A stretch of 38,499 bases of DNA from Candidatus Geothermincola secundus (GTDB lineage Bacteria > Actinomycetota > Geothermincolia > Geothermincolales > Geothermincolaceae): assembly GCA_015711755.1 (NCBI GenBank), contig JACVIY010000009.1, positions 1 through 38,499 on the forward strand, in the 5' to 3' direction. Positions 194 to 28,746 of the stretch are shown here, piece by piece. Every line of letters begins with the position of its first letter. The first letter of the stretch is position 1. Position numbers and translations under genes: made by a program. Below the pieces are notes generated by a model. It was given only the letters and a program-made list of their open reading frames with translations. It was not told where the DNA came from and ran no database searches.

Positions 194-1984
194 ATGACTG
201 ATACGTTTCGCTTCTCGCCCCGACCCAACCGGGCCGCGGAGATAAGATGGAGGGAGTGGGGCGAAGAATCCTTCCGGGAGGCAGCCGAGCAGGGCAAGCT
301 GGTGCTGCTGTCCATCTCCGCGGTGTGGTGCCACTGGTGCCACGTGATGGACGAGACCACTTACTCCGATCCCGAGGTCATAGAGCTGGTGAACGCGGGT
401 TTCATCCCCGTGCGGGTGGACAACGACCGAAGGCCCGATATCAACAGGCGCTACAATCAGGGGGGCTGGCCCACCACCGCTTTCCTCTCGCCGCAGGGCG
501 ACCTGCTGGCAGGGACCACCTACCTGCCCCCGGAGAGCATGCGGGCGGTACTCAAACGCTTCCGGGAGCTCTGGGAGGAGAAAGGCCGGGAGATCGAGGG
601 CCAGATCCGGGAGTCTGAGGATAACCGGGGCCGGGAGGGGCCGGCCGGAGAGAAGCGCCATCCGGCTATGCGGCTGCATCAAGGCATCCGCGATGAGGTA
701 TGGCGGGCGCTGGCCCGAGCCCAGGACCACCGGCACGGCGGTCTGGGAGGCGCTCCCAAGTTCCTCATGCCGGATACGCTGGAGCTGGCACTGGACGTAT
801 ATCAAGATCGCAGGAACCCCTCTGCCCTTGCCTGGCTCACGCTGACCCTCGACAACATGTTGTCAGGGGGCGTCTACGACCGGTTGGAAGGCGGCTTCTT
901 CCGTTACTCGACCACCCCCGACTGGTCGGTCCCCCATTATGAGAAGATGCTGTCCGACAATGCCCGCATGGCCGTCCTGCTCCTGCGGGCCTGGCGGATA
1001 ACGAGAAAACCGTCGTATCGGGAAAAGGCGGTTCAAACCCTCGATTACGTGGGGCGCACCCTCGGAGACGGCAAGGGCTGGTTCTACGGAAGCCAGGACG
1101 CCGATGAGGAGTATTACGCCGAGGATATGGCGGGCCGCGGCGCTCACGGGGCCCCGTTCGTCGATCCCACCGTTTACATCAACAGCCAGGCGGAGGCGGT
1201 GACGGCCTTCCTTGAGGCGGGAGAGCTTCTGAATAACCACCGTTTCCGGGAATGGGGGCGCTCGGGACTCGAGCTTTTAGCCGGGCTGGTTTCCGGCAAG
1301 AGCGGCGTCCCCCACTTCAAGGAGGGGCGGGACTTCGAGCATCGGGGCCTGCTGGAAGATCAGGCCCTCGCGCTTCTCGCCATACAGTACGGCCATCAGT
1401 TGACGGGAGAGCCCGATCTGCTGGAGAAGTCGATAGCGTTGGGAAAACTGCTGGCGGAGCGTTACTGGGACGAGGAAAGGCACATCCTCAGGGATATCGA
1501 CCCGCGCTTCCACGATGTCCGTCTGCGGCCGCAGCCTGCCGAGATATCCGATGCGGCAGCCGCCGCAAGGGGGCTGTGCCTGCTCTCCCGACTGGCCATG
1601 ATGCCCGATCTCGAGGAGGCGGCACGCGGCATCCTCGAGTCCTACGCAGATACCTACCCCCTTTACTCCTATCATGCCGCGGCCTATGCCCGGGCCGTGG
1701 ACCTCCTCCTCACCGGCCCCACGGTGGTATCTCTGCGGGGACGATCCGGCGAGGGGTTGTACCAGGGACTGAGGCGGGCCGTAGTGCTGTCGCCCCTGCC
1801 GCGTTTGGTCCTGGACCCGACAGGGAATAATGTTTATCCCGACGGCGGAGCGGATGAGAGCGACCCCGATAGGCCGCCTATCGCGACGGTATGCCGGGGC
1901 AGCAGCTGCAGCATGGCCACCAGGGACCCCGAGGAACTGGCAAGGGCTCTCGCGGTGAACTCCGGACTGTGGATGGAGGGATGA
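194..1984 (+). CDS. DUF255 thioredoxin-domain protein (YyaL/SSP411 family)
   Basis: This 596-residue protein belongs to the family with an N-terminal thioredoxin-like DUF255 domain followed by an (alpha/alpha)6-barrel-like region resembling glycosidase and AGE folds. The signature WCHWCHVM is at residues 45-52, so the two Cys (46, 49) sit in a CxxC-like arrangement, and the cis-Pro segment GGWPTTAFLSP follows at 90-100. The C-terminal half carries typical motifs such as GGVYDRLEGGFFRYS and PHYEKML. No signal peptide is seen, so it is probably cytoplasmic. The ATG at 194 follows a GGGGGAGGGGG tract. Its stop is 4 nt from the next ATG, so it is probably co-transcribed with the sulfur-transfer genes downstream. 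The biochemical role of the family is poorly defined; a redox or thiol role here is inferred from context. Length is slightly below the usual 600-700. Confidence 0.88.
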   Translation: MTDTFRFSPRPNRAAEIRWREWGEESFREAAEQGKLVLLSISAVWCHWCHVMDETTYSDPEVIELVNAGFIPVRVDNDRRPDINRRYNQGGWPTTAFLSPQGDLLAGTTYLPPESMRAVLKRFRELWEEKGREIEGQIRESEDNRGREGPAGEKRHPAMRLHQGIRDEVWRALARAQDHRHGGLGGAPKFLMPDTLELALDVYQDRRNPSALAWLTLTLDNMLSGGVYDRLEGGFFRYSTTPDWSVPHYEKMLSDNARMAVLLLRAWRITRKPSYREKAVQTLDYVGRTLGDGKGWFYGSQDADEEYYAEDMAGRGAHGAPFVDPTVYINSQAEAVTAFLEAGELLNNHRFREWGRSGLELLAGLVSGKSGVPHFKEGRDFEHRGLLEDQALALLAIQYGHQLTGEPDLLEKSIALGKLLAERYWDEERHILRDIDPRFHDVRLRPQPAEISDAAAAARGLCLLSRLAMMPDLEEAARGILESYADTYPLYSYHAAAYARAVDLLLTGPTVVSLRGRSGEGLYQGLRRAVVLSPLPRLVLDPTGNNVYPDGGADESDPDRPPIATVCRGSSCSMATRDPEELARALAVNSGLWMEG

Positions 1985-1988
1985 ACAT

Positions 1989-3170
1989 ATGCCCGATGTG
2001 TACATGGACCATTACGCGGCGACCCCCGTTATCCCGGAAGCGAGGGAAGCGATGCTGCCTTTCCTGGGAGACGAGTTCGGCAACCCCTCATCTCTCCACT
2101 CCTGGGGGGATCGAGCCCGCGAGGCCCTCGCTGAGGCGCGGGAAAAAGTCGCGGCCCTTATCGGAGCGGAAGACGAGGAGATCGTTTTCACTTCATGCGG
2201 AACCGAGGCGAATAATCTGGCCATCAAGGGGCTTGCAGGCGCCCTGAGCAAGAAAGGCAAGCATATAGTGGTTTCCGCCATCGAGCACTTCTCCGTGCTC
2301 AACGCCGCCCGCACCTTGGAGAAATCGGGATTCGAGCTGACCCTGTTGCCCGTGGACGGTTCGGGTATCCTGGAACTGGATGCCCTGCGGGAGAGCCTGC
2401 GTGACGACACCGTGCTGGTGTCGGTCATGGCCGCCAACGGCGAGATCGGCACCATCGAACCTCTGGCGGAGATAGCCGAGATAGTCGGGGGGCGGGGGAT
2501 AGCCTTCCACACCGACGCCGTCGCGGCCGCCGCCTACGTGCCCTTAGACGTGAGAAAGCTGGGTGTGACCGCACTCTCCCTGGCCTCGGACCTGATCTAC
2601 GGGCCCAAAGGAGCGGGAGCGCTATACGTGCGCAAAGGCACCCGCCTGCTGCCCCAGCTGGAGGGAGGGATACAGGAGGGGGGCCGCCGCAGCGGCACCG
2701 AGAACATGCCCGCCATCGTGGGGATGGGAGTGGCCGCCGAGTCGGCCCTGCGGGAGCGGGAAAAGAGGTCGGAAAAGCTCACCCGCCTCCGAGACCTGCT
2801 CATCGGCCGCATTCTAGAAGAGATCCCCCATGTCCGGCTCACAGGACACCCCCGTCAACGACTGCCTTGGAACGCCAGCTTCGTGATCGATTTCATCGAG
2901 GGGGAGGCCATGCTCCTCATGCTGGATCAGAAGGGCATCGCGGTGTCCAGCGGCTCCGCCTGCACCTCGCGCGCCCTCAAACGCTCCCATGTGTTGGACG
3001 CCTGCAGGGTTCCGGTGGAATCGGCGCAGGGGTCCATCCTCTTCAGCCTGGGGCTCGGCAACGAGGAAAGCGACGTGGAATATGTCATGGCGGAGCTTCC
3101 GCCCATAGTGGAAAAGCTCAGGGAGATGTCTCCGCTTTACGCGAAATTCCTGAAGGAAGGGGGCGGTTAG
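1989..3170 (+). CDS. NifS/IscS-like protein lacking the PLP lysine
   Basis: The 393-residue protein is a class-V aminotransferase fold of the NifS/IscS family. The catalytic Cys loop (SSGSACTS, C325), the His of IEHFSVL (H100, E. coli IscS H104) and the Asp of HTDAV (D176, IscS D180) are present. The Schiff-base segment, normally SxHKxxGPKG, reads ASDLIYGPKG (199-208), so the PLP lysine (IscS K206) is Leu202 and its preceding His is Asp201. Two other PLP contacts also differ: IscS Q183 is Ala179 and N155 is Gly151. It is therefore unlikely to be a PLP-dependent cysteine desulfurase. From memory, Archaeoglobus fulgidus IscS also lacks this lysine and forms an Fe-S complex with IscU. The IscU-like gene starts 1 nt downstream. 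Role inferred: scaffold partner or persulfide/sulfide carrier. The ATG at 1989 follows GGAGGG at about 1975-1980. Confidence 0.88.
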   Translation: MPDVYMDHYAATPVIPEAREAMLPFLGDEFGNPSSLHSWGDRAREALAEAREKVAALIGAEDEEIVFTSCGTEANNLAIKGLAGALSKKGKHIVVSAIEHFSVLNAARTLEKSGFELTLLPVDGSGILELDALRESLRDDTVLVSVMAANGEIGTIEPLAEIAEIVGGRGIAFHTDAVAAAAYVPLDVRKLGVTALSLASDLIYGPKGAGALYVRKGTRLLPQLEGGIQEGGRRSGTENMPAIVGMGVAAESALREREKRSEKLTRLRDLLIGRILEEIPHVRLTGHPRQRLPWNASFVIDFIEGEAMLLMLDQKGIAVSSGSACTSRALKRSHVLDACRVPVESAQGSILFSLGLGNEESDVEYVMAELPPIVEKLREMSPLYAKFLKEGGG

Positions 3171-3171
3171 A

Positions 3172-3573
3172 ATGGCCATGTACAGCGACGCGGTCATGGA
3201 CCATTTCACCAATCCGCGCAATGTCGGGGAGATCGAGGACGCCGACGGGGTGGGGGAGGTGGGCAATCCCACCTGCGGCGACATGATGACCTTCTACATA
3301 AAAGTTAAAGACGGGAGGCTCTCCGACGTGAAATTCAAGACCTTCGGCTGCGGGGCGGCCATAGCCGTTTCCAGCATGGTGAGCGAGATGGCCAAGGGCA
3401 AGACCATCGAGGAGGCGATGAGGATAACTCGCGACGACGTCGCGGAGGAGTTGGGAGGGCTGCCCAAGCAGAAGATGCACTGCAGCAACCTGGGGGCTGA
3501 CGCACTGCACAAGGCGATAGAGGATTATCTATCCAGGCAGCAAGCCGGAAAGGGGGAGGGCGATGATGAGTGA
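3172..3573 (+). CDS. iscU: IscU/NifU-N-type Fe-S cluster scaffold
   Basis: This 133-residue protein matches the IscU family along its whole length. The three cluster-ligand cysteines are C35 (GNPTCGD), C60 (FGCGAA) and C104 (KMHCSN). The conserved Asp37 and His103 are also present, so the scaffold should be able to build a [2Fe-2S] cluster. The LPPVK chaperone-recognition motif of proteobacterial IscU is replaced by LPKQK (97-101), and I see no HscA/HscB genes nearby. It starts 1 nt after the stop of the NifS-like gene and its 3' end overlaps the next gene by 11 nt, so the pair is almost certainly co-translated and likely interacting. An ATG at 3178 is an alternative start. With a desulfurase partner that appears PLP-less, the sulfur source may be free sulfide or a TusA/DsrE persulfide relay; that is inference. 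Confidence 0.9.
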   Translation: MAMYSDAVMDHFTNPRNVGEIEDADGVGEVGNPTCGDMMTFYIKVKDGRLSDVKFKTFGCGAAIAVSSMVSEMAKGKTIEEAMRITRDDVAEELGGLPKQKMHCSNLGADALHKAIEDYLSRQQAGKGEGDDE

Positions 3574-3760
3574 GGGACCGATGGGCAAGGATTTCTGCCG
3601 CTGCCCCTACTGCGACGCGGAGCTCACCGAGCCGACCCCGCTTTGCGGCACCTGCAAGATCGTTTTGATCACCTGCGCCCACTGCGGCACGGTCATGCGG
3701 GAAGGCCTGGAGACCTGCCCCGCCTGCGGGGAGAATACCGGCGGTCAAAAGGGGGATTGA
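3563..3760 (+). CDS. Small double zinc-ribbon protein
   Basis: This 65-residue protein is dominated by cysteine pairs: CPYC, CGTC, CAHC and CPAC, plus a further Cys before the first pair. That is enough to build two treble-clef or ribbon knuckles, each binding one Zn2+ (or possibly an Fe centre). It overlaps the end of the IscU gene by 11 nt and has a strong GGGGGAGGG ribosome-binding site. ATGs at 3563 and 3566 are adjacent candidates. No enzyme domain is visible. Its place between an Fe-S scaffold and a DsrE2-like protein suggests an accessory role in metal or sulfur handling, but the function is unknown. Confidence 0.75.
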   Translation: MMSEGPMGKDFCRCPYCDAELTEPTPLCGTCKIVLITCAHCGTVMREGLETCPACGENTGGQKGD

Positions 3761-3765
3761 GAGCC

Positions 3766-4254
3766 GTGGCCGAAGAGAGAAAACGCGGCGTTACCATAGT
3801 CCTCTTCAGCGGCGACCTCGACCGCGCCCTGGCGGCTTTCAACATCGCCAATACCGCAGCCGCCATGGGCCTTCCGGTGACCATGTTCTTCACCTTTTGG
3901 GGGCTGGGAGTCATCAAGAAGGAGGAGGGCAGGGTTGGTTCCGGCAGCTGGATGAAGAGAGCGATGAACCTGATCGACCGGGGCGGGGCCAAACGGCTCA
4001 AGCTCTCCAGGATGAACATGGGAGGCGTGGGCACGGCCATGATGAAGAAGCTCATGGCCGAACACAGGATGCCCTCACTGGGCGAGATGATCGCCATGGC
4101 CGATCAGCTGGGGGTGCGCATGCTCGCCTGCACCACATCCATGGCCCTGATGGGCCTGACCGAGAAAGACTTCATCCCCCAGGTAAGAGAGTTCGCGGGG
4201 GCGGCGACCTACGTCAGCAACGCCCTGGACTCCGAGGTCAACCTGTTCATCTGA
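3766..4254 (+). CDS. DsrE2-like sulfur-carrier protein (DsrE/DsrF/DrsH-like)
   Basis: The 162-residue protein has the DsrE/DrsH-like fold signature: an N-terminal strand VTIVLFSGDLDRALAAF, a second block GLPVTMFFTFWGL, and a conserved Cys in LACTTSMALMG near the C-terminal third. DsrE2-type proteins bind sulfur on that Cys and often sit beside TusA and rhodanese genes, as here. I chose the GTG at 3766 because a GGGGG tract lies about 10 nt upstream and homology begins soon after; a TTG at 3757 is the alternative. Further upstream the frame only reads through the zinc-ribbon gene. The single hydrophobic stretch is part of the fold rather than a clear membrane anchor. A role in passing persulfide to or from TusA is inferred from family and neighbours. 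Confidence 0.82.
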   Translation: MAEERKRGVTIVLFSGDLDRALAAFNIANTAAAMGLPVTMFFTFWGLGVIKKEEGRVGSGSWMKRAMNLIDRGGAKRLKLSRMNMGGVGTAMMKKLMAEHRMPSLGEMIAMADQLGVRMLACTTSMALMGLTEKDFIPQVREFAGAATYVSNALDSEVNLFI

Positions 4255-4286
4255 GCGCTTATGCATCATGGGAAGCCGAGGATGTG

Positions 4287-4520
4287 ATGGTGATGAAAGC
4301 CGACAGGACGCTGGACTGCGTGGGGCTCTACTGCCCCATGCCCATCGTAAAGACCTCCCAGGCGATGATGGAGATGCAGCCGGGCGAGGTGCTGGAGGTC
4401 ATCGCCGATGACCGGGGCATCAAGAGCGACATGCCCGCCTGGGCCTCCAAGACCGGCAACGAGTTCCTGGGCCTGAAGGAGGACGGCGACGAGATCAGGG
4501 TCTACGTGAGGAAAAAATGA
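4287..4520 (+). CDS. tusA: TusA-family sulfur carrier
   Basis: The roughly 77-residue protein is a complete TusA/SirA-fold domain with the hallmark CPMP motif (C16-P17-M18-P19) that carries the persulfide. An extra Cys at 11 and a typical EVLEVIADDRGIKSDMPAWA segment follow. Several starts are crowded together (GTG 4284, ATG 4287, GTG 4290, ATG 4293); ATG 4287 has GAGG with suitable spacing. It lies 32 nt after the DsrE2-like gene. In known systems TusA relays sulfur between a cysteine desulfurase, DsrE proteins and acceptors such as tRNA-modifying enzymes or dissimilatory sulfur enzymes. Here the local desulfurase appears PLP-less, so TusA may be loaded by DsrE2 or another donor; this is inference. 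Confidence 0.88.
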   Translation: MVMKADRTLDCVGLYCPMPIVKTSQAMMEMQPGEVLEVIADDRGIKSDMPAWASKTGNEFLGLKEDGDEIRVYVRKK

Positions 4521-4590
4521 GATAGGCGCGGAAAAATCCCGGAGCCCCGCCGAGGGTCCCCTTGCCGCGCCTCGGGGGAGAGGAGGAGCA

Positions 4591-5082
4591 ATGAGCACGG
4601 AGCAGAACCTGTATGATGCGTTCACCGGGGAAGCCAAGGCGGCGGTGCGCCTCACCGCCTACGCCCGCAAAGCGGAGGAAGAGGAATACGAGGCCATCGC
4701 CAAGCTCTTCAGGGCGGTTTCCGCATCGGAGTCCATCCATGCCTACAACAACCTGCGGCTGCTCAAGGAGATAAAGGACACCGAGACCAACCTGCAGGAG
4801 GCGCTGGCCAGCGAGCAGAAGATCGCCGCGGTGGCCTACGGGAAGTTCATCGCCGAGGCGGAAGCGGAGGGCAAGGAGGCCGCTGCCACCATGTTCTCCT
4901 ATGCCCGCGATGTGGAGGACCGCCATGCCAAGCTCTACGAGATGGCCCTGCAGCACCTGGTAGCGGACGAGGTGCCCGATTATTTCGTCTGTTCGGTATG
5001 CGGTTACGTGGCGGACGGGGCTGTACCCGACAAATGCCCCATCTGCGGAGCTCCGGAGGATAAGTTCTTCGCCGTCGAATAG
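4591..5082 (+). CDS. Rubrerythrin
   Basis: This 163-residue protein has the two-part rubrerythrin layout: an N-terminal four-helix diiron domain with the expected Glu-rich helices (TGEAKAAVRL, SASESIHA, FAEA-like and ARDVEDRHAKLYE segments) and a C-terminal rubredoxin-like knuckle with VCSVCGY and KCPICGA (about 133-155) holding one Fe. Rubrerythrins act as cytoplasmic NADH- or rubredoxin-dependent peroxidases in anaerobes, protecting Fe-S enzymes. The ATG at 4591 has a strong GAGGAGGAG site. It is 70 nt from TusA; a short hairpin (CCGAGG/CCTCGG) in that gap could modulate read-through. Protecting the adjacent Fe-S assembly proteins is a reasonable inferred role. Confidence 0.9.
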   Translation: MSTEQNLYDAFTGEAKAAVRLTAYARKAEEEEYEAIAKLFRAVSASESIHAYNNLRLLKEIKDTETNLQEALASEQKIAAVAYGKFIAEAEAEGKEAAATMFSYARDVEDRHAKLYEMALQHLVADEVPDYFVCSVCGYVADGAVPDKCPICGAPEDKFFAVE

Positions 5083-6648: not shown

Positions 6649-6786
6649 TCAGGATCTGAGAATCTTGAGGACCGCGGCGGCGGCCAGAATCGCCGCGAGC
6701 AGCGCGTACTGAGAGAAGAGGACGGCGCGCACGCGCCAGCTGACCTTCTCGGACCTGCCCGCACGGAACATCCTCCTCAAAGCCAT
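6649..6786 (-). CDS. 45-residue single-span membrane microprotein coupled to the Mg2+ ATPase
   Basis: A complete small gene lies directly at the 3' end of the fusion ATPase gene; its ATG (6786-6784) overlaps the ATPase stop (6777-6779) by 10 nt. It encodes 45 residues: a basic N-terminus (MALRRMFRAGRSEKVSWRVR) and one hydrophobic helix from about residue 21 to 42, ending KILRS. GGGGG lies a few bases before the ATG, inside the ATPase gene, and the overlap suggests translational coupling. By position and topology it resembles small accessory subunits of P-type pumps (KdpF, MgtS/MgtR-like), but there is no sequence recognition behind that comparison. Topology is expected to be N-in. A second ATG at codon 6 has poor spacing. 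Confidence 0.6.
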   Translation of the reverse strand: MALRRMFRAGRSEKVSWRVRAVLFSQYALLAAILAAAAVLKILRS

Positions 6787-9700
6787 TCACCCCCGAACCG
6801 CTGACGGTATGCCCATTTGACCCCCTGGGCATGGAGCACGTAGGCGGATACCACGACCACCAGCAGGGGCCAGTAGCCGCCGGGCAGGCCGGTCAAGCCC
6901 AGGGACCTCCCCAGGGCGGTGAAGGGCACGGCGGCGGCGGCGGCAACCGCACCGGTGCCCGCCAGCAGGACCGGCAGCGAGGCCCGGCTCTCCAGGAAAG
7001 GCCTTTTGTCCGTTCTCAGGACCTGGATGATAAGTGTCTGCGTGGCCATGCTGGCCACGAACCACCCCGACTGGAACAGCGCCTGCTTGTCGGGGGTGGA
7101 GGCGGCGAACACGAAGTACATGACGGCGAAAATCGCCAGGTCGTAGAGGGAACTCACCGGCCCCAGGAAGAGCATGAAGCGCACCAACCCGCGGGAATCC
7201 CAGCGACGGGGGCGCATGATGAAATCCCGGTCCACCCTGTCGAAGGGTATGGCCAGGCAGGAGAGGTCGTAGACCAGGTTGAGGAAAAGGAGCTGCAGGG
7301 GGAGCATGGGTAAAAAGGGAAGGAGGGCCGAAGCGGCCAGGATGCTGAAGACGTTGCCGAAATTGGAGGAGGCGGTTATCTTGATATACTTCATGATGTT
7401 GGCGAAAACCGACCGCCCTTCGGCTATCCCGTTCTCCAGCACGGTGAGGCTCTTCTCCAGCAGAATGATGTCGGCGGACTCCTTGGCGATATCCACCGCT
7501 GTGTCCACGGAGATGCCCACATCCGCCGCCCGCAGGGCGGCCGCGTCGTTGATGCCGTCCCCCATGAAGCCCACGGTCCTTCCGGCCTCCCTGAGCACCC
7601 TGACGATGCGCGCCTTCTGCAGGGGATCCAGCCGCGCCACCACGCTGGCCTTTTCCAGGGCCACGGCCAGCTCCTCGTCGCTCATCCTCTCCACCAGCCC
7701 GCCGGAGATGATGCGGCCCACGGGGATGCCCACCTTCTCGCAGACGGAGCGGGCCACCGCCTCGTTGTCCCCGGTGAGAACCTTTACTTCCACCCCCAGC
7801 TGCCGCAAGCCGCTCACCGCCTCCGCGGCGCTTTCCTTGGGCGGGTCGAGGAAGCCGATAAAACCCAGCAGCACCAGATCGCGCTCGTCCTCCGGGGAGA
7901 ACCTCCTCTGTTTTTTGGCGATGTCCCTATATCCCACCGCCAGGACCCTCATCCCGTCCTCATTCAGCTCGCGGACTCGTGCCAGCGCCTTCTCCCTCAC
8001 CTCCGGCGTGAGGGGGAGGGACTCCCCGTTCACCCGGGCGGTGGATGAGGCGGCCAGCACCTTCTCCACCGCCCCCTTGCAGATGAGGCGGGATGTGCCG
8101 TCGCCGTCCCGCACGATTATGGACAGCCGCTTGCGGGAGAAGTCGAAGGGGACCTCGTCCACCTTCTCCAGGCCGTTCAGATGGTCGGACATGCCCAGGC
8201 GCCCGGCGAACTCCAGGACGGCGTCATCCAGGAGGTTGCGAAGGCCGGTCTGAAAATAACTGTTTATGTAGGCCAGTCGCAGCACGTCGGGGGAGTCGCG
8301 CCCCTCCAGGTCGATGTGCCTCTCCAGGACCACCCGGTCCTCGGTGAGAGTGCCGGTCTTGTCGGTGCAGAGTATATCGATGGCCCCCAGGTTCTGTATG
8401 GCGCTGACCTGCTTGACGATGACCTTATGGCGGGACAGCCGGATGGATCCGCGGGCCAGGTTGCCGGATACGATCATGGGCAGCATCTCCGGCGTGAGCC
8501 CCACCGCCACCGCCAGGGCGAAGAGCCCGGAGTCCAAGCTGCCCTTGCCGCCGAGCAGGTTGATCAGAAACACCAGGGGGACCATGGCCCCCATGAAGCC
8601 GACGAGCACCCAGCTCACCCGGCTCACGCCGCGGTCGAAGGCGGTGGGCTCCGGCTTCTTGACCAGTTCCTGCCCCAAGGAGCCCAGATAGGTGGATGCG
8701 CCCGTGGCGATGACCACGCCGGCCGCGCTGCCGCTGGTGACGCTGGTCCCCATGAAGCAGAGCGTCTCCGCCTCCAGAGCGGTGGCCGGCAGTTCGGTGA
8801 AGCTCCTCCTCACCGCCCTGGCGTGTTTCTCCACGGGCAGCGACTCCCCGGTCAGGGAGGACTCGCTGACGAAGAGGTCGCGCGAGACCAGCACGCGCAT
8901 ATCCGCTGGGACCAGGTCACCGGCGTGGAGGTACACGATATCTCCGGGGACTATTTGTTCCACGGGTATCTCCCTCGCGGAATGCATGACCTCCGGCGAG
9001 AGCAGCGCCTCCAGCTCCACAGGCGATCCCTCCCGCGCTACTTCAGCCCTCCTCAGCACCAGGGCGGTGGTCCTCACTATCTCCTGCAGCCCCGCGGCCA
9101 TGCGGGCGCTGCGGTATTCCTGGAAGAAGCGCACCAGGCCGCTGGCCAGTATCATCAGCGAGATGATGATCATCTTGGAGGGGTCAGGCTCATCAGACAG
9201 ACGCACGTCGGTCAGGTAGGAGACCACCGCCAGCAGGACCAGTATGCCGTTGAAGGGACTGCGGAAGGCGTTCAGCAGCTGAGAATACCAGCGCAGCCGC
9301 CTCAAGGGGGAGATGACGTTGGGGCCGTACTGATTGAGGCGGCGCCGCACCGTTTCCTCGTCCAGCCCTTCCGCCGCGGACTCCAGCACCGACAGGGCCT
9401 GCTGGGGAGATACGCTGGCCACCTGCAGGAGGAGGTCGGGCTCCTCCGCCGGCTTTCTGGCCATGCGCGGCGCCCGGGGAGCCGGCCCGGAGCGCAGGCG
9501 CTGCACTATCTCGATGACGTCGTCCAGGGTCACCACTCCCAGCAGGGTGCCCACCTCGTCCACCACCGGGAGGGAGAGCAGATCGTACTTGGCCATGGTC
9601 TCGGCTACGTGCTCCTGATCGTCCTCCGGCTGCACGGTGACCACATTGGGGGTGACCAATTCCCGCACCACGGTGTCCGGTTCGGCTATGACGATATCGC

Positions 9701-10730
9701 GCAGGGACACCCTTCCCACCAGGCGCCGATCCTCCGGACCGCGCACCACGTAAAGGTGCTGGGACTCATCGGTGATGGAGGGGTTGGCCCGCAGGTACTC
9801 GATGACCTCGTGGGCGGTCATTTCCTCGGGGATGATGGCCGAAGCGGGCTTCATTATGCCCCCGGCGGAGTTCTCCCGGAAGCCCAGAAGGTTGCGGATG
9901 GCCCGCTGCTCTTTGAGACCCATCAGCCGCAGCAGCTTCTCCGCTTTCTCGTAGGGCAGGTCGCTGATGATGTCCGCGGCATCGTCGGCATCCATCTCCT
10001 CGAGGATGCTGGAGGCCCTCTTCAGCGTCAGTGCCTCGATGGCGTCCGCCTGCAGCTCGTCCTGCATCTCACTGATGGCGCTGGCGGCCGCGGCGTCGTC
10101 CAGCAGCTCGAAGACCCTGGCCCTTCTGGACTGCGGGAGCTGCTCGATGATGTCGGCGATGTCCGCTGGATGGAGCTCATGCAGCCGCTTATGGGTCATG
10201 GACAGCTTGACGTGGCTCAAGTCGCGGTCCAGCAGGTCCATGTAGTTCCAGGCGATGAGGTTCTCGCGCAGGGGACGCCCCAACCAACTCGAGACTCTGG
10301 TGATTGCCGACTCCAGGAGGGACGAGAAGCTGCGCAGCATGCCCCGTATGCCCACCTCCGCGCCCAGAAGCCGCAGTTGGTTCCTGGACTCCACCAGCTC
10401 CAGGTCGCGCACCCGCACGACCTTCTTGCCCTGGGTATCGATGATGTCTTTGTTGAGGAGATCGCGGGCCAGCAAGATCTCGTTGGGCTGCTGATAGCTG
10501 AAGCGGAGGTCCTCCCGCCTGCCGTTGAGCCTTATCCGTTCCTCGTCGAAGTCATCGACGAACTTGCGCCAGGACAGCATGAACGGCGTACGGTCCGCCC
10601 CCAGGAAGGCGATAGCCGTGACCCGCGGGAATACCTCCCGCGTCTCGATGGCCAGGTCGCTGATGCGGCCGACCTCCTCCCCCGAGGCGTCCACCACAGG
10701 CGATCCAAGAAGCTGGGTCAGGTGGATCAT
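6777..10730 (-). CDS. MgtE-type Mg2+ sensor fused to MgtA-type P-type ATPase
   Basis: This 1317-residue frame joins two Mg2+ systems. Residues 1-75 and about 84-130 look like PRC-barrel-like modules (LLGSPVVDASGEEVGRISDL; LNKDIIDTQGKKVVRVRDL). Residues about 180-290 match the MgtE N-domain (LHELHPADIADIIEQLP; DADDAADIISDLP), and 295-412 form a CBS pair. From about 440 comes a full P-type ATPase: N-terminal cation-ATPase segment, TGES at 627-630, the MgtA hallmark GLTPEMLP at 744-751, phosphorylation motif DKTGT at 790-794, KVLTGDN, and MGDGINDAAAL, then C-terminal spans including NLVYDLSCLAIPFDRVD. MgtE N-CBS domains sense cytoplasmic Mg2+ in the MgtE channel, whose pore domain is absent here. 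Inferred role: an inner-membrane Mg2+ import ATPase with its own Mg2+ gate. The frame is open with no sign of a frameshift. Confidence 0.93.
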   Translation of the reverse strand: MIHLTQLLGSPVVDASGEEVGRISDLAIETREVFPRVTAIAFLGADRTPFMLSWRKFVDDFDEERIRLNGRREDLRFSYQQPNEILLARDLLNKDIIDTQGKKVVRVRDLELVESRNQLRLLGAEVGIRGMLRSFSSLLESAITRVSSWLGRPLRENLIAWNYMDLLDRDLSHVKLSMTHKRLHELHPADIADIIEQLPQSRRARVFELLDDAAAASAISEMQDELQADAIEALTLKRASSILEEMDADDAADIISDLPYEKAEKLLRLMGLKEQRAIRNLLGFRENSAGGIMKPASAIIPEEMTAHEVIEYLRANPSITDESQHLYVVRGPEDRRLVGRVSLRDIVIAEPDTVVRELVTPNVVTVQPEDDQEHVAETMAKYDLLSLPVVDEVGTLLGVVTLDDVIEIVQRLRSGPAPRAPRMARKPAEEPDLLLQVASVSPQQALSVLESAAEGLDEETVRRRLNQYGPNVISPLRRLRWYSQLLNAFRSPFNGILVLLAVVSYLTDVRLSDEPDPSKMIIISLMILASGLVRFFQEYRSARMAAGLQEIVRTTALVLRRAEVAREGSPVELEALLSPEVMHSAREIPVEQIVPGDIVYLHAGDLVPADMRVLVSRDLFVSESSLTGESLPVEKHARAVRRSFTELPATALEAETLCFMGTSVTSGSAAGVVIATGASTYLGSLGQELVKKPEPTAFDRGVSRVSWVLVGFMGAMVPLVFLINLLGGKGSLDSGLFALAVAVGLTPEMLPMIVSGNLARGSIRLSRHKVIVKQVSAIQNLGAIDILCTDKTGTLTEDRVVLERHIDLEGRDSPDVLRLAYINSYFQTGLRNLLDDAVLEFAGRLGMSDHLNGLEKVDEVPFDFSRKRLSIIVRDGDGTSRLICKGAVEKVLAASSTARVNGESLPLTPEVREKALARVRELNEDGMRVLAVGYRDIAKKQRRFSPEDERDLVLLGFIGFLDPPKESAAEAVSGLRQLGVEVKVLTGDNEAVARSVCEKVGIPVGRIISGGLVERMSDEELAVALEKASVVARLDPLQKARIVRVLREAGRTVGFMGDGINDAAALRAADVGISVDTAVDIAKESADIILLEKSLTVLENGIAEGRSVFANIMKYIKITASSNFGNVFSILAASALLPFLPMLPLQLLFLNLVYDLSCLAIPFDRVDRDFIMRPRRWDSRGLVRFMLFLGPVSSLYDLAIFAVMYFVFAASTPDKQALFQSGWFVASMATQTLIIQVLRTDKRPFLESRASLPVLLAGTGAVAAAAAVPFTALGRSLGLTGLPGGYWPLLVVVVSAYVLHAQGVKWAYRQRFGGEWL

Positions 10731-10806
10731 CGTTCATATACCTGTCTCCGGCTGACTTATCGGACATATCTGTTTTTAATCCGGTCATCTCGGCATTCAC
10801 GCAGAC

Positions 10807-10815
10807 AATATAGCA
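10807..10815 (-). promoter_or_regulatory. Extended -10 promoter for the Mg2+ ATPase
   Basis: On the minus strand the sequence TGCTATATT gives a TGn-extended -10 box (TATATT at 10812-10807). No clear -35 is present 16-18 bp upstream, which is tolerated by extended -10 promoters. The start would be near 10800, leaving a leader of about 70 nt before the ATG at 10730. No Mg2+ riboswitch motif is evident in that leader. Confidence 0.45.
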
Positions 10816-10900
10816 CAATCGCCCCGCTCATAGCGGAAAAACTCCTATATTTTTGCCTTTTTCGGCTTTGTTCGGCAGGGCTCCTTGTCCCGCTCGGCCT

Positions 10901-23274: not shown

Positions 23275-24291
23275 TCAGGGGGGTCGTTTCCCCTCGTTCC
23301 AGGTGACCATCTCCAGGAAGCTCTCCAGGCGCATGCGGGTGCGGGAATCCATGCGGTGGGAGCGGTCCATCTCCAATGTGAGGACGGGAAGTGAAAGGCG
23401 GCGGCGCAGCAGGATATCCTCCACCTGACGAAAGCAGAAGCTCTGCACGTAGTGGATGATGCCCTGCAAGCGGCGGCGTCCCGCCTCCTCTTCGATGTCC
23501 CGCAGGCGCGCACGCAGCGAATAGGGGTAGGTGAAGGAGAGGTAGCGGCCGATAAGGTCGTTCGATGTGTCGGGCAGGGTGAACTGCCGCTGCACCTCAT
23601 GGAACACCACCCGGGCTCCCTGGTCCTCCAGGAACCCGAACAACTCCGGGGCGATGGGGGGGACACCCACGTATCCCAGCCGCAGGGAGATGGGCCGGCC
23701 GGAATCCGAGATCCAGGGGCGGGCGGATCTTGCACGTTCCAATGCCAGGTCCGCCCGCGAAGAGAAGGCCTCGGGATCGCCCTCCATATCGCTGCAGGAT
23801 ACCTGGAAGAGGTGGGCTTCCGGGCCGCTCACCCGGCCCTCCTCCCAACAGAGGCGGTCCAGTTCCCATATCCGGCTCCTCGCGCCGTCCAGCCTCTTCT
23901 CGGCCTCCTTCACCGCCTCCCAGTCGGCTCCCAGGTACCGCATCAGCTTCTCCATCTCCGCCCGCAGGAAGGAGCGTTCGGGGACGCAGGGATAGGCGAA
24001 AGAGATGACCTCCACCCCATCCGCCTCCAGCACTTCCATCAGTGCCCTGGTGTTGGAGCAGTCGCCCTGGGTCACCGCCAGCACCGCGTCGATGCCGCCG
24101 CAGAGACGCACCGCCCCGTAGATGCCCTTCACCCAGGCGCAGAAGTTGCGCGGAAAGCCGGCCAGCTCCGCTTCCTCGATAAGGCTCGCAGGGCAGGGAT
24201 GGGCCAGAAAGAGGTTGTTGAGGTCCACGGGGACATGTCCCGCCGCGTAGATTATCTCCACGGGCACGGTGGTGGTTATGCCGATCCTCAT
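23275..24291 (-). CDS. 2-hydroxyacyl-CoA dehydratase D-component-like protein (HgdB/FldC type)
   Basis: The 338-residue protein begins IGITTTVPVEIIYAAGHVPVDLNNLFL, the opening typical of the HgdA/HgdB/FldBC family, and keeps candidate Fe-S cysteines in HPCP, FCAWVKG, GDCSNT and SFCFRQVED. Family members bind a [4Fe-4S] cluster and, when activated by an ATP-dependent ferredoxin reductase (HgdC), dehydrate 2-hydroxyacyl-CoA by a ketyl-radical route. Neither a partner subunit nor an HgdC-type activator is in the window, so this could be a stand-alone family member with another reductive role. The ATG at 24291 lies 6 nt after a perfect TATAAT, implying a leaderless mRNA; there is no Shine-Dalgarno site. 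Confidence 0.78.
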   Translation of the reverse strand: MRIGITTTVPVEIIYAAGHVPVDLNNLFLAHPCPASLIEEAELAGFPRNFCAWVKGIYGAVRLCGGIDAVLAVTQGDCSNTRALMEVLEADGVEVISFAYPCVPERSFLRAEMEKLMRYLGADWEAVKEAEKRLDGARSRIWELDRLCWEEGRVSGPEAHLFQVSCSDMEGDPEAFSSRADLALERARSARPWISDSGRPISLRLGYVGVPPIAPELFGFLEDQGARVVFHEVQRQFTLPDTSNDLIGRYLSFTYPYSLRARLRDIEEEAGRRRLQGIIHYVQSFCFRQVEDILLRRRLSLPVLTLEMDRSHRMDSRTRMRLESFLEMVTWNEGKRPP

Positions 24292-24297
24292 GTGACG

Positions 24298-24303
24298 ATT
24301 ATA
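24298..24303 (-). promoter_or_regulatory. -10 box for a leaderless HgdB-like mRNA
   Basis: A perfect TATAAT on the minus strand ends 6 nt before the ATG at 24291, so the predicted start coincides with the start codon. The -35 region is GC-rich without a good match. Confidence 0.5.
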
Positions 24304-24345
24304 AGCCACGTTGCCGCTGCTCCCCCGGGCTCGCCGCAGGCGCAA

Positions 24346-24374
24346 GAAAAAGGGGCGCCCCCAAGGGCGCCCCG
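24346..24374 (-). terminator. Intrinsic terminator of the crotonase/acyl-CoA dehydrogenase operon
   Basis: On the minus strand GGGGCGCCC (24373-24365), loop TTGG and GGGCGCCCC (24360-24352) form a perfect 9-bp stem followed by TTTTTC, 17 nt past the acyl-CoA dehydrogenase stop. Confidence 0.92.
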
Positions 24375-24390
24375 ATGCGATCAGGTCCTC

Positions 24391-25566
24391 TCAGTTCCAG
24401 GGGTAGGCGTCGGTCACCCCCATGAGGTTGGCCCCGATGACCAGACGCTGTATCTGCGCGGTGCCCTCGTAGATCTGCATGATCTTGGCGTCGCGCATCA
24501 GCTTCTCCACCAGGTACTCCTTCATGTAACCGTAGCCGCCGTGGATCTGCACCGCGTTGGTGGTCACCTCCATGGCCAGGTCGCCTCCGAAGGCCTTGGC
24601 GTAGGAGGACTCCAGCGAGCAGGGCAGCCCCTTGCCGGCCTTCCAGGCGGCCAACTGATAGAGGCGGCGGCCCGCCTCTATCTTCATGGCCATCTCCGCC
24701 AGCATGAAATTGATGGACTGCTGGGCGATGATGGGCTTGCCGAACTGCACTCTCTCCTTGGCATAGCGCAGGGCCTCCTCGAAGGCGGCGCGGGCCACGC
24801 CCACGCCGGCGGCGGCCACGCTGGCCCTGGTCAGGTCCAAGGTGGTCATCACGTTGTAGAAGCCCTGACCCATGGGCACCAGCAGGTTCTCCTTGGGCAC
24901 CTTGACGTTGTCGAAGATGACCTCGGTGGTGTTGGAGGCGCGGATGCCCATCTTGTCTTCCTTCTTGCCGATGGATACCCCCTCGTAGGAACGCTCCACG
25001 ATCACCGCGCCGATGCCGCCGTATTTCTTGGATTTGTCGAAAGTGCCGAAGACTGTGTAGAAGTTGGCCAGCCCGCCGTTGGTGATGAAGCACTTGGTGC
25101 CGTTGACCAGGAAGTGGTCGCCCTTGTCCTCGATGGTGGTGGATATGGATGCGGCGTCGGAGCCGGCGCCCGGCTCAGTCAGGCAGAACGCCGCGAACTT
25201 GGGGTCGTCCGGGTCGCAGAGCCGGGGGAAATACTCCTTGCGCTGCTCGTCGTTGGCGGCGATGAGCATGGGGGTGGTGGCCAAGCTGTTGGCCCCCAGG
25301 GTGGTGGCGATGCCCGCGCAGCCCCAGAACAGCTCCTCGCTGACCATGGCCGCGGTGAGCTGATCGAGGCCTCCGCCGCCGTATTCCTCGGGGATGGCCA
25401 TGGCGGTGAGACCGGCGGCCGCCGCCTTCTTCACCAGCTCGTCGGGGATCTTCCCTTCCTTGTCGCATTCCAGGGCGATGGGGCGCATCTCGTTCAGGGC
25501 GAACTCGTGCGCCATCTTGCATATCGCCTTCTGTTCCTCGGTTGGTTCAAAGTCGACCATGCGCAA
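24391..25566 (-). CDS. Acyl-CoA dehydrogenase
   Basis: The 391-residue protein is a complete acyl-CoA dehydrogenase: N-terminal helical domain (MVDFEPTEEQKAICKMAHEFA), the FAD/acyl signature FCLTEPGAGSDAAS, and the C-terminal QIYEGTAQIQRLVIGANLMG with the catalytic Glu of YEGT. Placement of that Glu is that of short/medium-chain and butyryl-CoA dehydrogenases. It would oxidise acyl-CoA to enoyl-CoA in the cytoplasm and pass electrons to EtfAB; an EtfAB pair sits 11 kb away within the Hdr operon. The AAGGAGG site precedes the ATG at 25566. It follows the crotonase gene by 52 nt and ends in a strong terminator. Exact chain length is not determinable. Confidence 0.94.
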   Translation of the reverse strand: MRMVDFEPTEEQKAICKMAHEFALNEMRPIALECDKEGKIPDELVKKAAAAGLTAMAIPEEYGGGGLDQLTAAMVSEELFWGCAGIATTLGANSLATTPMLIAANDEQRKEYFPRLCDPDDPKFAAFCLTEPGAGSDAASISTTIEDKGDHFLVNGTKCFITNGGLANFYTVFGTFDKSKKYGGIGAVIVERSYEGVSIGKKEDKMGIRASNTTEVIFDNVKVPKENLLVPMGQGFYNVMTTLDLTRASVAAAGVGVARAAFEEALRYAKERVQFGKPIIAQQSINFMLAEMAMKIEAGRRLYQLAAWKAGKGLPCSLESSYAKAFGGDLAMEVTTNAVQIHGGYGYMKEYLVEKLMRDAKIMQIYEGTAQIQRLVIGANLMGVTDAYPWN

Positions 25567-25618
25567 CCTCCTTTTCTCAAACCAACCTGGCCTTACTCCT
25601 TAACTGAAAACGCCCTTC

Positions 25619-26410
25619 TCACCTGCCGATGAACTCCGCCTTACCCGGTCCCTTCTCCAGGAAGGTCCGCATGCCGATGGTGCGGTCCTCGCTGGCGAAG
25701 CAGAGGGAGATCCCCTGCGCCTCGATGAGCAGGCCCTCCTCTATGGAGCACTCCATCCCCTTGTTGACCGCCCACTTGGCGGCGGCCAGGGCCACCGCCG
25801 GGCCCTTGGCATAGCGGCCCGCTATCTTCACGGCCAGCTCGATGACGGAATCATCGCCCTTTACCACTTTCTGGACCAGCCCCATCTCGCAGCATTCCTC
25901 AGCGCTGTAGAACTTGCCGGAATAGATCATCTCCTTGGCTCGGGTCGGCCCTATGAGGCGGGGCAGGCGCTGGGTCCCCCCCGCTCCCGGGATGATGCCC
26001 AGCAGTATCTCCGGCTGCCCGATCCGCGCGTTCTCGTGGGCGAAGCGGAAGTCGGCGCAGATGGCCAGCTCGCACCCCCCGCCCAAGGCGAAGCCGTTGA
26101 TGGCGGCGATGACCGGTTTGGGGATATTCTCCACGGCGGTGAAGGCGTCCTGCGCTCCCCGGATGAAGCGGGATACCATCACCGGGGTCATGTCCACCAT
26201 CTCCTTGATGTCGGCCCCCGCCGCGAAATTCTGCTCCCCGCCCGTCAGCACCACCGCCCGCACTTCGTCGTCATAGGTGAGCTCAAGGGCGCAGAGGCCG
26301 ATCTCCCTGAAGAGTTGGGTGTTGAGCGGATTGAGCGGGGGTCGGTTGAGCTGGAAGAGGGCCACGCCGTCGGAGACTTCCACCTTAACCAGTTCGTAAT
26401 CGTAGGCCAT
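25619..26410 (-). CDS. Enoyl-CoA hydratase/isomerase family protein (crotonase)
   Basis: The 263-residue protein has the crotonase motifs [10 protein letters not shown] (oxyanion hole), [20 protein letters not shown] and [24 protein letters not shown]; both catalytic Glu residues (GGGCE and QPE) are present, supporting hydratase activity on trans-2-enoyl-CoA. Together with the downstream acyl-CoA dehydrogenase it supplies two successive steps of beta-oxidation or the reverse butyrate-type route. The ATG at 26410 has AGAGGAGG upstream; the frame extends about 100 codons further upstream but that part has no homology. It could also act on another CoA ester such as 3-hydroxybutyryl-CoA. Confidence 0.93.
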
Positions 26411-26644
26411 GCCGTCCTCCTCTGCTGATATACACTGATTTCCCGGCTTTCGGAAATGACGCTCCTTCTCCCCTCGGACGCAACGCGAAAAAAGATTATC
26501 ACCGGGGCGGGATGCCGTCAATAAACCCCAGGTAGTAGTGAAAAAGTGGGGGATGGCGTTCTCAACAGGAGGCTTCCTCCGCAGGCATCCAGCTCTTCCG
26601 CCTTTACTCGGAAGCGGGTTTTTCCAGCCGGCCGGGCCATTCGA

Positions 26645-26742
26645 TTTCTCAAGATCCGTCGCAAGAGTTCGACTTATTGCGCCATATGGCGGGTGCGGGG
26701 AACGCACCGCGCCCCGTGATCTTTCAAGATCCGTTGTAAAGG
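26645..26742. promoter_or_regulatory. Direct repeats CAAGATCCGT flanking a palindrome, candidate operator
   Basis: The 401-bp gene-free stretch 26411-26811 is organised. CAAGATCCGT occurs at 26650-26659 and again at 26725-26734, 75 bp (about seven helical turns) apart, each inside a longer similar context (TTTCTCAAGATCCGTCGCAA; CTTTCAAGATCCGTTGTAAA). A perfect 12-bp palindrome CGCCATATGGCG lies between them at 26680-26691. The second repeat abuts the -35 box of the cotransporter promoter. The layout suits a dimeric regulator or looping, perhaps responsive to phosphate; it does not look like a classic Pho box. The rest of the stretch, 26411-26644, shows no gene. Confidence 0.4.
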
Positions 26743-26762
26743 CGGTGTTTTGCCGCTATCAT
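26734..26762 (+). promoter_or_regulatory. Promoter of the Na/Pi cotransporter
   Basis: -35 TTGTAA (26734-26739), a 17-bp spacer and -10 TATCAT (26757-26762) predict a start near 26769, only about 17 nt before the upstream mini-ORF. The -35 overlaps the downstream CAAGATCCGT repeat, so that repeat could act as a repressor or activator site. Confidence 0.5.
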
Positions 26763-26785
26763 TTGCATTTGGCAAGGAGGGACCC

Positions 26786-26815
26786 GTGAGAGCGGGAGCG
26801 GAGGGACCGCGTTGA
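26786..26815 (+). CDS. Nine-codon upstream ORF coupled to the cotransporter start
   Basis: A GTG at 26786, 5 nt after a perfect AAGGAGG, opens a nine-codon frame (fMet-RAGAEGPR) whose TGA (26813-26815) overlaps the TTG start of the cotransporter (26812). The best ribosome-binding site of the region therefore belongs to this mini-ORF rather than to the transporter, which fits translational coupling or a leader peptide. It may be chance; the transporter also has its own GGAGGG. Confidence 0.4.
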   Translation: MRAGAEGPR

Positions 26816-28503
26816 CCATAAAGGCCGACAACATCTGGATGGGCCTGCTCATGCTCGTGGGCGGGCTGGGGCTCTTCCTTTACGGCATGATCCTGATGGG
26901 CGAGGGGCTGCAGCTGGCCGCGGGAGAGAGATTGCGCAGGATGCTGGAGACCCTTACGCGCGGGCGCGTCCGCGGGGTCCTTACCGGGGCGGGAGTTACC
27001 GCCCTCATCCAGAGCTCCTCCGCCACCACGGTGATGCTGGTGGGCTTCGTCAACGCGGGGCTTATGACCTTCACCCAGTCGGTGGCGGTGATCTTCGGTG
27101 CCAACATCGGCACCACGGTGACCGCGCAGATCGTGGCCTTCAACGTGAAGACCCTGGCCTTCCCCTGCATCGGCGCAGGGCTCCTCCTCTACATGGTGGG
27201 AAGCAAGAAATCAGTGAAGTACTCGGGCGAGGTCCTGCTGGGCTTCGGCGTCCTTTTCCTGGGCATGGCCATGATGACCGGGGCCATGTCCCCCCTGGCG
27301 AAATCCCAGACCTTCGAGAACTGGATCGGTAGCTACGGCTCCAACTGGTTCATCGGTTTTCTTCTGGGCATACTGATCACCAGCATCCTGCAGAGCTCCT
27401 CGGCCACAACCAGCATGGTCATAGCCATGGCGGTATCGGGCGTGCTGACCCTAGGCGTCCCGGAGGGAGTGGACCCCGCTTACCACGCGGTGCGCATCGC
27501 TTTTCCCATCATCCTGGGATGCAATATCGGCACCTGCATAACCGCCTTCATCGCCTCCCTGGGGACCAGCCTTCCCGCACAGCGCGTGGCCGTCGCCCAT
27601 TATCTCTTTAACATAACCGGAGCTATGCTCTTCCTGCCGTTCACCGCCTGGATGCCCCATCTTACCCGCTGGGTGGCGGGGGCTTTCGGGGCTGGGCCAG
27701 AGGATGTCGCCAGGCAGATAGCCTTCTCCCACACCATCTTCAACACGGTGATGACCCTGCTCTGGCTGCCCTTCATCGGGCAGTTCGTGAAGGTGGTCAA
27801 GTGGATCCGCAAGGGGGACGAGAAGATGCCGCAGCGCGATCCCCTCTTCCTGGACCCGCGCATCTTCCACAGCCCGGCGGTAGCGCTGGAGATGGCCCGC
27901 AAGGAGATAGCCCGCATGGCCCGCCTGACCCTGGAGATGCTCTCCAGGAGCATGGGCTTCTTATGGAAGATGGATCGGGCGGGCAAACGCGCCCTGCTGG
28001 AGGAAGAGAGCATCGTGGACGGGCTGGCCCACAACATCACCGAGTACCTCTCCAAGCTATCACAGGAGCCCCTTTCCGATGAGCAGTCCGAACTGCTTAC
28101 GGGGATGATGCACGCGGTCAACGATATCGAGCGCATCGGCGACCACGCCGAGAACATCATGTATCTGGCGGAGAACAAGAACGACGGCAGCTTCAGGTTC
28201 ACCGAGGAGGGCGAGGCCGAGCTCAATGAGATAAGGCAGGCGGTCATGAGGATGTACGAGGGCATGATCGAGGCCTTCGAGGAAGAGGATGTGGATAAGG
28301 CCCGCCGTTTCAAGCCGCTGGAAGGTGAGATAGACGACATGGCCAGTCGCTTCCGCCGCAACCACCTTGGACGGCTCAACCGCGGGGAATGCGACGGGCA
28401 GGCCGGGGTCATCTTCCTGGACACCCTGTCCAACCTGGAGAGGGTGGGGGACCTGGCCAACAACCTGGGGCACGTGGTCGCCGGGGAGCTCGACCAGCTC
28501 TAA
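26812..28503 (+). CDS. Na+/phosphate cotransporter with PhoU-like C-terminal domain
   Basis: The 563-residue protein has two Na_Pi_cotrans repeats, each with the hallmark QSSSATT (about residues 65-71 and 195-201), and eight to nine membrane spans to about residue 330. A cytoplasmic PhoU-like helical domain follows (about 345-563), with NDIERIGDHAENI and SNLERVGDLANNLGHV, the two PhoU metal-binding repeats. It should import inorganic phosphate with Na+, the PhoU part probably sensing or regulating. It is the only + strand gene between 5.5 kb and the window end. It starts with TTG at 26812, behind GGAGGG and overlapped by an upstream mini-ORF, with a promoter and operator-like repeats upstream. 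No pst/pho genes are nearby. Confidence 0.92.
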   Translation: MTIKADNIWMGLLMLVGGLGLFLYGMILMGEGLQLAAGERLRRMLETLTRGRVRGVLTGAGVTALIQSSSATTVMLVGFVNAGLMTFTQSVAVIFGANIGTTVTAQIVAFNVKTLAFPCIGAGLLLYMVGSKKSVKYSGEVLLGFGVLFLGMAMMTGAMSPLAKSQTFENWIGSYGSNWFIGFLLGILITSILQSSSATTSMVIAMAVSGVLTLGVPEGVDPAYHAVRIAFPIILGCNIGTCITAFIASLGTSLPAQRVAVAHYLFNITGAMLFLPFTAWMPHLTRWVAGAFGAGPEDVARQIAFSHTIFNTVMTLLWLPFIGQFVKVVKWIRKGDEKMPQRDPLFLDPRIFHSPAVALEMARKEIARMARLTLEMLSRSMGFLWKMDRAGKRALLEEESIVDGLAHNITEYLSKLSQEPLSDEQSELLTGMMHAVNDIERIGDHAENIMYLAENKNDGSFRFTEEGEAELNEIRQAVMRMYEGMIEAFEEEDVDKARRFKPLEGEIDDMASRFRRNHLGRLNRGECDGQAGVIFLDTLSNLERVGDLANNLGHVVAGELDQL

Positions 28504-28566
28504 CCCTCGGGGCTAGCCCTTCACTACGCTTCCTTGGGACTTTAAACGCGATCGGTGATTTCCCGA

Positions 28567-28730
28567 CCATCGGTTTGTGAATTTTTGTGATAATGGTGTC
28601 AGACACCGAGGGTGACGCTGAGAGAAGGGACGGGGAGGGCAGCAGGGCTACGACCAGCGTAAACTCATTTTGCTGACCGTCAGTTTGTGATAATTTGTGA
28701 TAATGGTGTCTGACACCGAAAGTGACTCTG
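28567..28730. repeat. Two inverted-orientation copies of the GTGTCAGACAC repeat family
   Basis: The palindromes GGTGTCAGACACC (28595-28607) and GGTGTCTGACACC (28705-28717) are each preceded by two TTTGTGA motifs and followed by GA(G/A)GGTGAC- or GAAAGTGAC-type sequence. Spacing between copies is 110 bp, close to the 108-bp period of the array at 14158-14415, of which these are the reverse complement with divergence. They fill the 243-bp gap 28504-28746 between the convergently ending cotransporter and L,D-transpeptidase genes, where such hairpins could also stop transcription. Confidence 0.85.
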
Positions 28731-28746
28731 AGGGTGATGATTTCCG

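Follow-up and report, generated by a model that had tools for sequence, protein, structure and literature searches.

The 38,499-nucleotide stretch analysed here (the window), positions 1 to 38,499 of contig JACVIY010000009.1 of Candidatus Geothermincola secundus, carries on its minus strand a gene in which the cytoplasmic Mg2+ sensor of an MgtE-type channel is joined to an MgtA-type P-type ATPase. A preliminary description of the sequence had placed this gene in one uninterrupted frame at 6777-10730, and the frame was confirmed. It encodes 1317 amino acids (aa), and its N-terminus, MIHLTQLLG, is a start shared with the homologues. The gene and its parts are as follows.

6777..10730, minus strand: complete fusion gene, 1317 aa, Mg2+ sensor module and P3B-type Mg2+ ATPase (single frame, Pfam, NCBIfam, orthologue in genome G010)
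10353..10730, minus strand: residues 1-126, PRC-barrel (Pfam PF05239, 2-55) and a second PRC-like beta-rich segment (about 95-126) (Pfam, strands of the AlphaFold2 (AF2) model)
9870..10175, minus strand: residues 186-287, superhelical N domain MgtE_N with D249, D253 and S217 (Pfam, 95 bits; ligand mapping; AF2)
9489..9866, minus strand: residues 289-414, CBS pair with D383, D404 and E407 (Pfam, mapping, best Foldseek matches 2yvy, 5x9h and 2zy9)
9417..9497, minus strand: residues 412-438 (about 27), basic Pro/Arg-rich linker, predicted disordered (sequence; predicted local distance difference test score, pLDDT, below 50 in both AF2 models)
6780..9416, minus strand: residues 439-1317, complete MgtA-type P-type ATPase with A, P and N domains and ten modelled membrane helices (Pfam, NCBIfam, AF2, best Foldseek matches E. 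coli MgtA 8uy8 and 8uy7)
8841..8852, minus strand: TGES motif, residues 627-630 (motif search)
8478..8501, minus strand: GLTPEMLP (744) in transmembrane helix 4 (TM4), where E748 corresponds to E331 of E. coli MgtA (motif search, mapping)
8349..8363, minus strand: phosphorylation motif DKTGT (790), where D790 corresponds to E. coli D373 (motif search, mapping)
7140..7142, minus strand: D1197, corresponding to D780 of E. coli MgtA (mapping)

Pfam recognised two CBS domains, the best at residues 355-409, and in the ATPase half Cation_ATPase_N (439-504), E1-E2_ATPase (585-768), Hydrolase (785-1070) and Cation_ATPase_C (1139-1306). The same scan gave no match to the MgtE pore domain (PF01769) in the fusion protein, in agreement with the earlier view that the cytoplasmic part of MgtE (PRC-like segment, N domain and CBS pair) is present here without the pore. 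The MgtE profile TIGR00400 covered residues 172-411 only and scored 180 bits, short of its cutoff of 233. The aspartate pattern of the MgtE pore found no match, even in the PRC-MgtE homologues of the host's own class, and was not used as evidence.

The fusion is also present in G010, a genome of the same order as the window and of another family. This orthologue is full length (1317 codons), 87% identical and free of indels. Between the two genes the synonymous divergence (dS) is 0.65 and the ratio of nonsynonymous to synonymous divergence (dN/dS) is 0.12. Both halves are under purifying selection, and since dN/dS is lower in the sensor (0.081) than in the ATPase (0.133), the sensor is the more constrained half; by region, the values are 0.117 for the PRC/linker part (residues 1-180), 0.056 for MgtE_N, 0.058 for the CBS pair and 0.100 for the linker. 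DNA similarity of the two contigs is limited to window positions 6664-10821, beyond which the flanking genes differ, and the GC content of the gene, overall and at third codon positions, is close to that of its neighbours. The locus almost certainly encodes one real fused protein.

The Mg2+ ligands of the sensor half were mapped by transfer from Thermus thermophilus (Tth) MgtE, with the sites taken from PMC5882242. Four ligands are identical in the fusion (D91, D95, D226 and D247 correspond to D249, D253, D383 and D404), D250 is replaced by E407 and E59 by S217. Across the relatives the E59 position is mostly Glu or Asp; it is Gly in most members of the f19 group described below, and Ser in the two fusions only. 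MgtE-like relatives carry an acidic plug segment (EExxxEDL) after the CBS pair, whereas the fusions have at this place the basic linker RLRSGPAPRAPRMARKPAEEPD and no plug helix. In the AF2 model of residues 1-440 (pLDDT 70.6) the N domain has seven helices, the CBS pair is present and residues 416-440 are disordered; the best matches of the model in the PDB are MgtE cytosolic domains, namely 2yvy (E 6e-20), 5x9h and 2zy9. In its domains, the sensor half is a genuine MgtE-type cytoplasmic module.

The nearest relatives of this module, at 62-63% identity, are 612-aa PRC-MgtE_N-CBS proteins with a transmembrane (TM) region (phylum family f48). They are followed by stand-alone sensors with one C-terminal hydrophobic segment (f26) and by TM-extended forms (f19 and f41); the PRC-MgtE proteins of the host's own class are only about 34-42% identical. 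In the sensor tree, the fusion sensors fall within a 28-row clade of NrmT-adjacent proteins (support 98/95); f48 is placed as their sister group, but with lower support (84/69). An Nramp gene directly adjoins the sensor gene in 19 of 20 loci examined (11 stand-alone, eight of the nine TM-extended), and the sensor gene lies directly upstream of it. The Nramp assignment was confirmed by Pfam for three of these neighbours, and one matches E. lenta NRMT (EleNRMT, 7QIA) with 663.9 bits, EleNRMT being a demonstrated Mg2+ transporter (PMC8806188). These sensor genes correspond to the MgtE-like accessory gene that Shin et al. reported beside NrmT in 2014, proposing cytoplasmic feedback (PMC4072509). 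The nearest relatives are mostly such accessory proteins rather than typical stand-alone MgtE channels, so that the module can be regarded as having had three kinds of partner: a channel, a secondary transporter and, in the fusion, a pump.

Among these relatives, the Nramp-adjacent PRC-MgtE_N-CBS proteins L137-L139, L142, L161 and their kin bear a TM region of about 200 aa that PF01769 does not recognise and for which TIGR00400 is marginal. Proteins of this type may have arisen from MgtE channels by decay of the pore into a membrane anchor. Separately, in a genome of the window's own GTDB family (G001, locus L181; 1405-2676, 2769-4034) the gene immediately after a P-type ATPase gene is an NRMT-like Nramp gene; the locus holds only the C-terminal part of the ATPase gene.

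The ATPase half scored 1099.3 bits with TIGR01524, the NCBIfam equivalog of Mg2+-translocating P-type ATPases (curated cutoff 610.75), and the catalytic motifs TGES (627), DKTGT (790) and GDGIND (1057) are all present together with GLTPEMLP, which upholds the initial assignment of a complete P3B Mg2+ ATPase. Compared with E. coli MgtA, conserved positions include E331 (E748), D373 (D790), N706 (N1123), N709 (N1126), D738 (D1155), S776 (S1193), D780 (D1197) and W806 (W1223), while S813 is replaced by Thr1230, and H729, Q733 and Q741 differ. D780 has been reported to be exclusive to the Mg2+ ATPase clade and essential (PMC10925321). The AF2 model of residues 118-1317 reached a pLDDT of 82.2 and a predicted template-modelling score (pTM) of 0.65, and matched MgtA in Foldseek with an E value of 4e-74. 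In a 115-row tree the two fusions group together with a support of 100; their stem is long (0.81), and they lie within the canonical MgtA group, separate from the MgtA-like proteins of their own class. None of about 113 other MgtA relatives examined had an N-terminal open frame of more than 140 aa upstream of the ATPase. The ATPase half is very probably a Mg2+ pump, and the inferred direction is ATP-driven import. Within its A domain, a loop at residues of about 560-600 (window 8931-9053, minus strand) holds some 15-20 residues more than in E. coli MgtA; at 66% identity between the two fusions it is the lowest among the regions compared. The extra residues might be a contact for the sensor.

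How far the fusion is spread, a point raised in the preliminary description, was followed in samples of genomes; in some of these samples scoring was confined to the two or three top candidates of each genome. Two carriers, the window's host and G010, were found among about 1,440 sampled genomes of five phyla. No further fusion appeared in about 395 other genomes of the same phylum, in the 31 genomes of the own class, in 399, 199, 248 and 200 genomes of four other phyla, in 162 plasmid records, in IMG/VR or among the best 80 matches of a scan of GTDB contigs. Long open frames in G1369, G1388, G1336 and G994 were tried as fusions and rejected, as they contain no sensor and resemble high-GC read-through. 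The literature searched, mostly without subscription papers, yielded no description of such a protein. Upstream of the fusion, neither an M-box nor another riboswitch was found at the gathering score, and a relaxed threshold gave two weak, chance-level matches. In the host assembly, which is 83% complete, we found no other MgtE_N protein, no CorA and no Nramp, the latter being absent also from beside the fusion. The fusion may be the main Mg2+ importer of its host, a claim kept tentative because of that completeness. G010, unlike the host, has a separate PRC-MgtE gene and an NRMT-like gene.

A small open reading frame (ORF) follows the pump.

6649..6771, minus strand: conserved 40-aa ORF with a single TM segment after the stop codon of the pump gene, 45 aa if read from the overlapping ATG at 6786 (frame kept in G010, codon pattern)

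Its predicted product reads MFRAGRSEKVSWRVRAVLFSQYALLAAILAAAAVLKILRS in the window and MRVSRAQDGKRANWRVRAVLFSQYALLAALLAAAAALKLFLA in G010, where the ORF lies in L165 just downstream of 6089 and its ATG overlaps the pump stop codon as TGATG. Over a core of 25 codons, 9 of the 11 differences between the two genomes occupy the third codon position (p=0.0014) and 8 of the 10 changed codons are synonymous; identity drops just beyond the stop codon. One strong TM segment was predicted, and no sequence family matched above its curated cutoff. The codon pattern makes translation of the ORF quite likely. MgtR, MgtS, MgtU and KdpF are small membrane proteins that accompany P-type ATPases. The ORF directly follows the pump gene and is conserved along with it, and its predicted product would be a short protein of comparable kind; by this analogy it is a candidate small subunit, and whether it acts on the pump would be an even bet. 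In Bacteroidota, five mgtA genes (L033, L034, L035, L042 and L088) are each followed by an ORF of 35-49 aa at an overlap of exactly -7; the encoded peptides have a Trp as residue 10, a single TM segment and Asp or Glu near position 25. These ORFs apparently represent an undescribed family of small proteins coupled to MgtA.

As to the genes around the fusion, a gene of the metallo-beta-lactamase fold lies just downstream of it in G010 (L165:4633-5745, minus strand), and a homologous-looking one just downstream of a different MgtA-clade pump in G007 (L004:487-1458, minus strand). The window has no such gene at this place but a ketopantoate reductase-like gene. Window positions 194-5082 (plus strand) encode a DUF255/thioredoxin-like protein, a NifS-type cysteine desulfurase, rubrerythrin and small ORFs that by eye are DsrE-like and TusA-like, a possible sulfur-transfer or redox cluster. 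The region 23275-38486 (minus strand) resembles a block for anaerobic acyl-CoA metabolism: it encodes acyl-CoA dehydrogenase, enoyl-CoA hydratase, a D component like that of 2-hydroxyglutaryl-CoA dehydratase, electron transfer flavoprotein (ETF) alpha, a CCG-domain protein and several Fe-S oxidoreductases.

The arrangement of the fusion moderately favours an ATP-driven importer of the MgtA type to which an allosteric sensor, most likely inhibitory, has been added at the N-terminus. That the sensor regulates the pump through Mg2+ seems fairly probable, and we lean slightly towards inhibition at high Mg2+ as its effect. In MgtE, cytosolic Mg2+ forms a bridge between the N domain and the CBS domains and holds the plug helices in place (PMC8104411, PMC5882242). 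The MgtE-style shut-off first envisaged for the pump held in part: four acidic ligands are kept and feedback can reasonably be inferred, but with the plug helix and the E59 ligand lost the MgtE lock cannot be transferred unchanged, and a different coupling is needed. The sensor would probably be a dimer held by its CBS pair, and it would be loose at low cytosolic Mg2+. In the simplest model, its compaction by Mg2+ would alter how it docks or is tethered at the A domain, and would slow the pump: with no plug movement, the compacted sensor would dock on the A domain or on the P/N domains, or would alter the A-domain tether, and either change would halt the E1/E2 cycle. The single-TM protein of about 40 aa may join the pump as an associated small subunit, analogous to MgtR, MgtS or KdpF. 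We favour docking or tethering because the flexible basic linker replaces the plug and occupies the place of the basic N-terminal tail of MgtA; in E. coli this tail, for which a regulatory role was proposed, touches TM2/TM4 as well as the A and P domains (PMC10925321).

The control itself had been thought undescribed for MgtA. However, inhibition of MgtA by free Mg2+ above 1 mM was already published (Subramani 2016, PMC4758953), so that post-translational Mg2+ control of MgtA is not new and the sensor would supplement, sharpen or shift a control that the pump already has. MgtA is further subject to the action of lipids and small proteins (PMC10710835, PMC10925321), and according to a 2023 review the mechanism of its inhibition by Mg2+ in the cytosolic range is not yet elucidated (PMC10710835).

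Several points weigh against an inhibitory Mg2+ sensor. Three of the six cytoplasmic MgtE sites retain their mapped ligands (Mg4, Mg6 and Mg5, the last with Asp changed to Glu); the ligands of Mg2 and Mg3, in the plug helix, and of Mg7 (E59) are gone, and in Tth MgtE mutation of any single site weakened Mg2+-dependent closure (PMC5882242). Structure prediction, which the preliminary description had proposed as a check, modelled the domains well, but the placement of the sensor relative to the pump is uncertain; given the pTM of 0.65 and the predicted disorder of the linker, we claim no docking pose. The NrmT of A. capsulatum, with a sensor gene adjacent, is mainly a Mn2+ transporter (PMC4072509), and sensors of this type may read other metals. 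Finally, the inhibition of MgtA by Mg2+ on its own may make an extra sensor redundant.

This last point would suit a sensor that activates the pump or shifts its set point, Mg2+ relieving an autoinhibition or the module widening or shifting the narrow Mg2+ window of MgtA, and the absence of the closure-enforcing plug fits as well. We regard such a role as unlikely, since Mg2+ binding is inhibitory in MgtE, the characterised system with such a sensor (PMC5882242, PMC8104411). A little less likely is a sensor whose main ligand is not Mg2+ but Mn2+, or a nucleotide bound by the CBS pair, and which links the activity of the pump to that signal. Besides the A. capsulatum case, the CBS domains of MgtE bind ATP (PMC5529423) and the equivalents of R187 and D188 are retained (R344 and D345); however, Tyr170, Asn203 and Phe227 of the ATP site are replaced by His325, Thr360 and Leu384 (Leu being usual at the last position in the subfamily), and the acidic Mg2+ ligands between the N and CBS domains are kept. 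The N-terminal module could also serve dimerisation, stability or localisation without any gating. MgtE cytoplasmic domains dimerise, a dimer of E. coli MgtA was reported (PMC10925321), and two of the four charged dimer-contact positions that were checked differ in the fusion (K382 is R799, E582 is K999), so that a substitute dimeriser could be useful; yet MgtE_N and the CBS pair, with their acidic ligands, evolve slowest in the protein (dN/dS 0.056-0.058), beyond what a simple tether needs, and we find this role improbable. That two genes were joined by a frame or assembly error, or by a recent read-through without function, is the weakest possibility and extremely improbable, for although the host assembly is incomplete and fragmented (169 contigs), an identical mistake would be needed in two independent assemblies, and the orthologue in G010 carries the same indel-free fusion under purifying selection at a dS of 0.65 in another neighbourhood, which rules it out.

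Because the fusion is a naturally occurring pump whose Mg2+ sensor is well understood and can be removed, it opens feedback on active Mg2+ uptake to direct tests. By the Rosetta-stone argument, the fusion also supports what was proposed in 2014, namely that a transporter is regulated by the stand-alone MgtE-like proteins found beside NrmT. The sensor is seemingly interchangeable among channel, carrier and pump, and we put forward, tentatively and at slightly less than even chances, that PRC-MgtE_N-CBS is a portable Mg2+ gauge used on three importers of unrelated mechanism, namely MgtE as a channel, NRMT as a secondary transporter and the ATP pump, the pump version being plug-free, docking onto the ATPase domains and having a co-encoded membrane subunit of about 40 aa. 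On this reading the protein would be the first P-type ATPase under MgtE-type sensor gating.

Compared with the MgtE channel (TIGR00400; T. thermophilus 2ZY9/2YVY), the fusion has in common the N domain and the CBS pair with the equivalents of D91, D95, D226 and D247; it differs in lacking the pore and the plug helix (Tth E258 and D259) and in having a pump as its output. The likeness to the P3B ATPases MgtA/MgtB (TIGR01524; E. coli MgtA 8UY7, L. lactis MgtA 9EJN/9BYB) extends across the whole ATPase region, which in a structural alignment is about 47% identical to E. coli MgtA and shares all core motifs and D780, but a 439-residue sensor stands where MgtA has a short disordered N-terminal tail. 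The accessory proteins of NrmT/NRMT, the closest relatives of the fusion sensor (49-63% identical), share its PRC-MgtE_N-CBS architecture; they are separate, membrane-anchored proteins beside a secondary transporter, whereas the fusion sensor is covalently attached to a primary pump.

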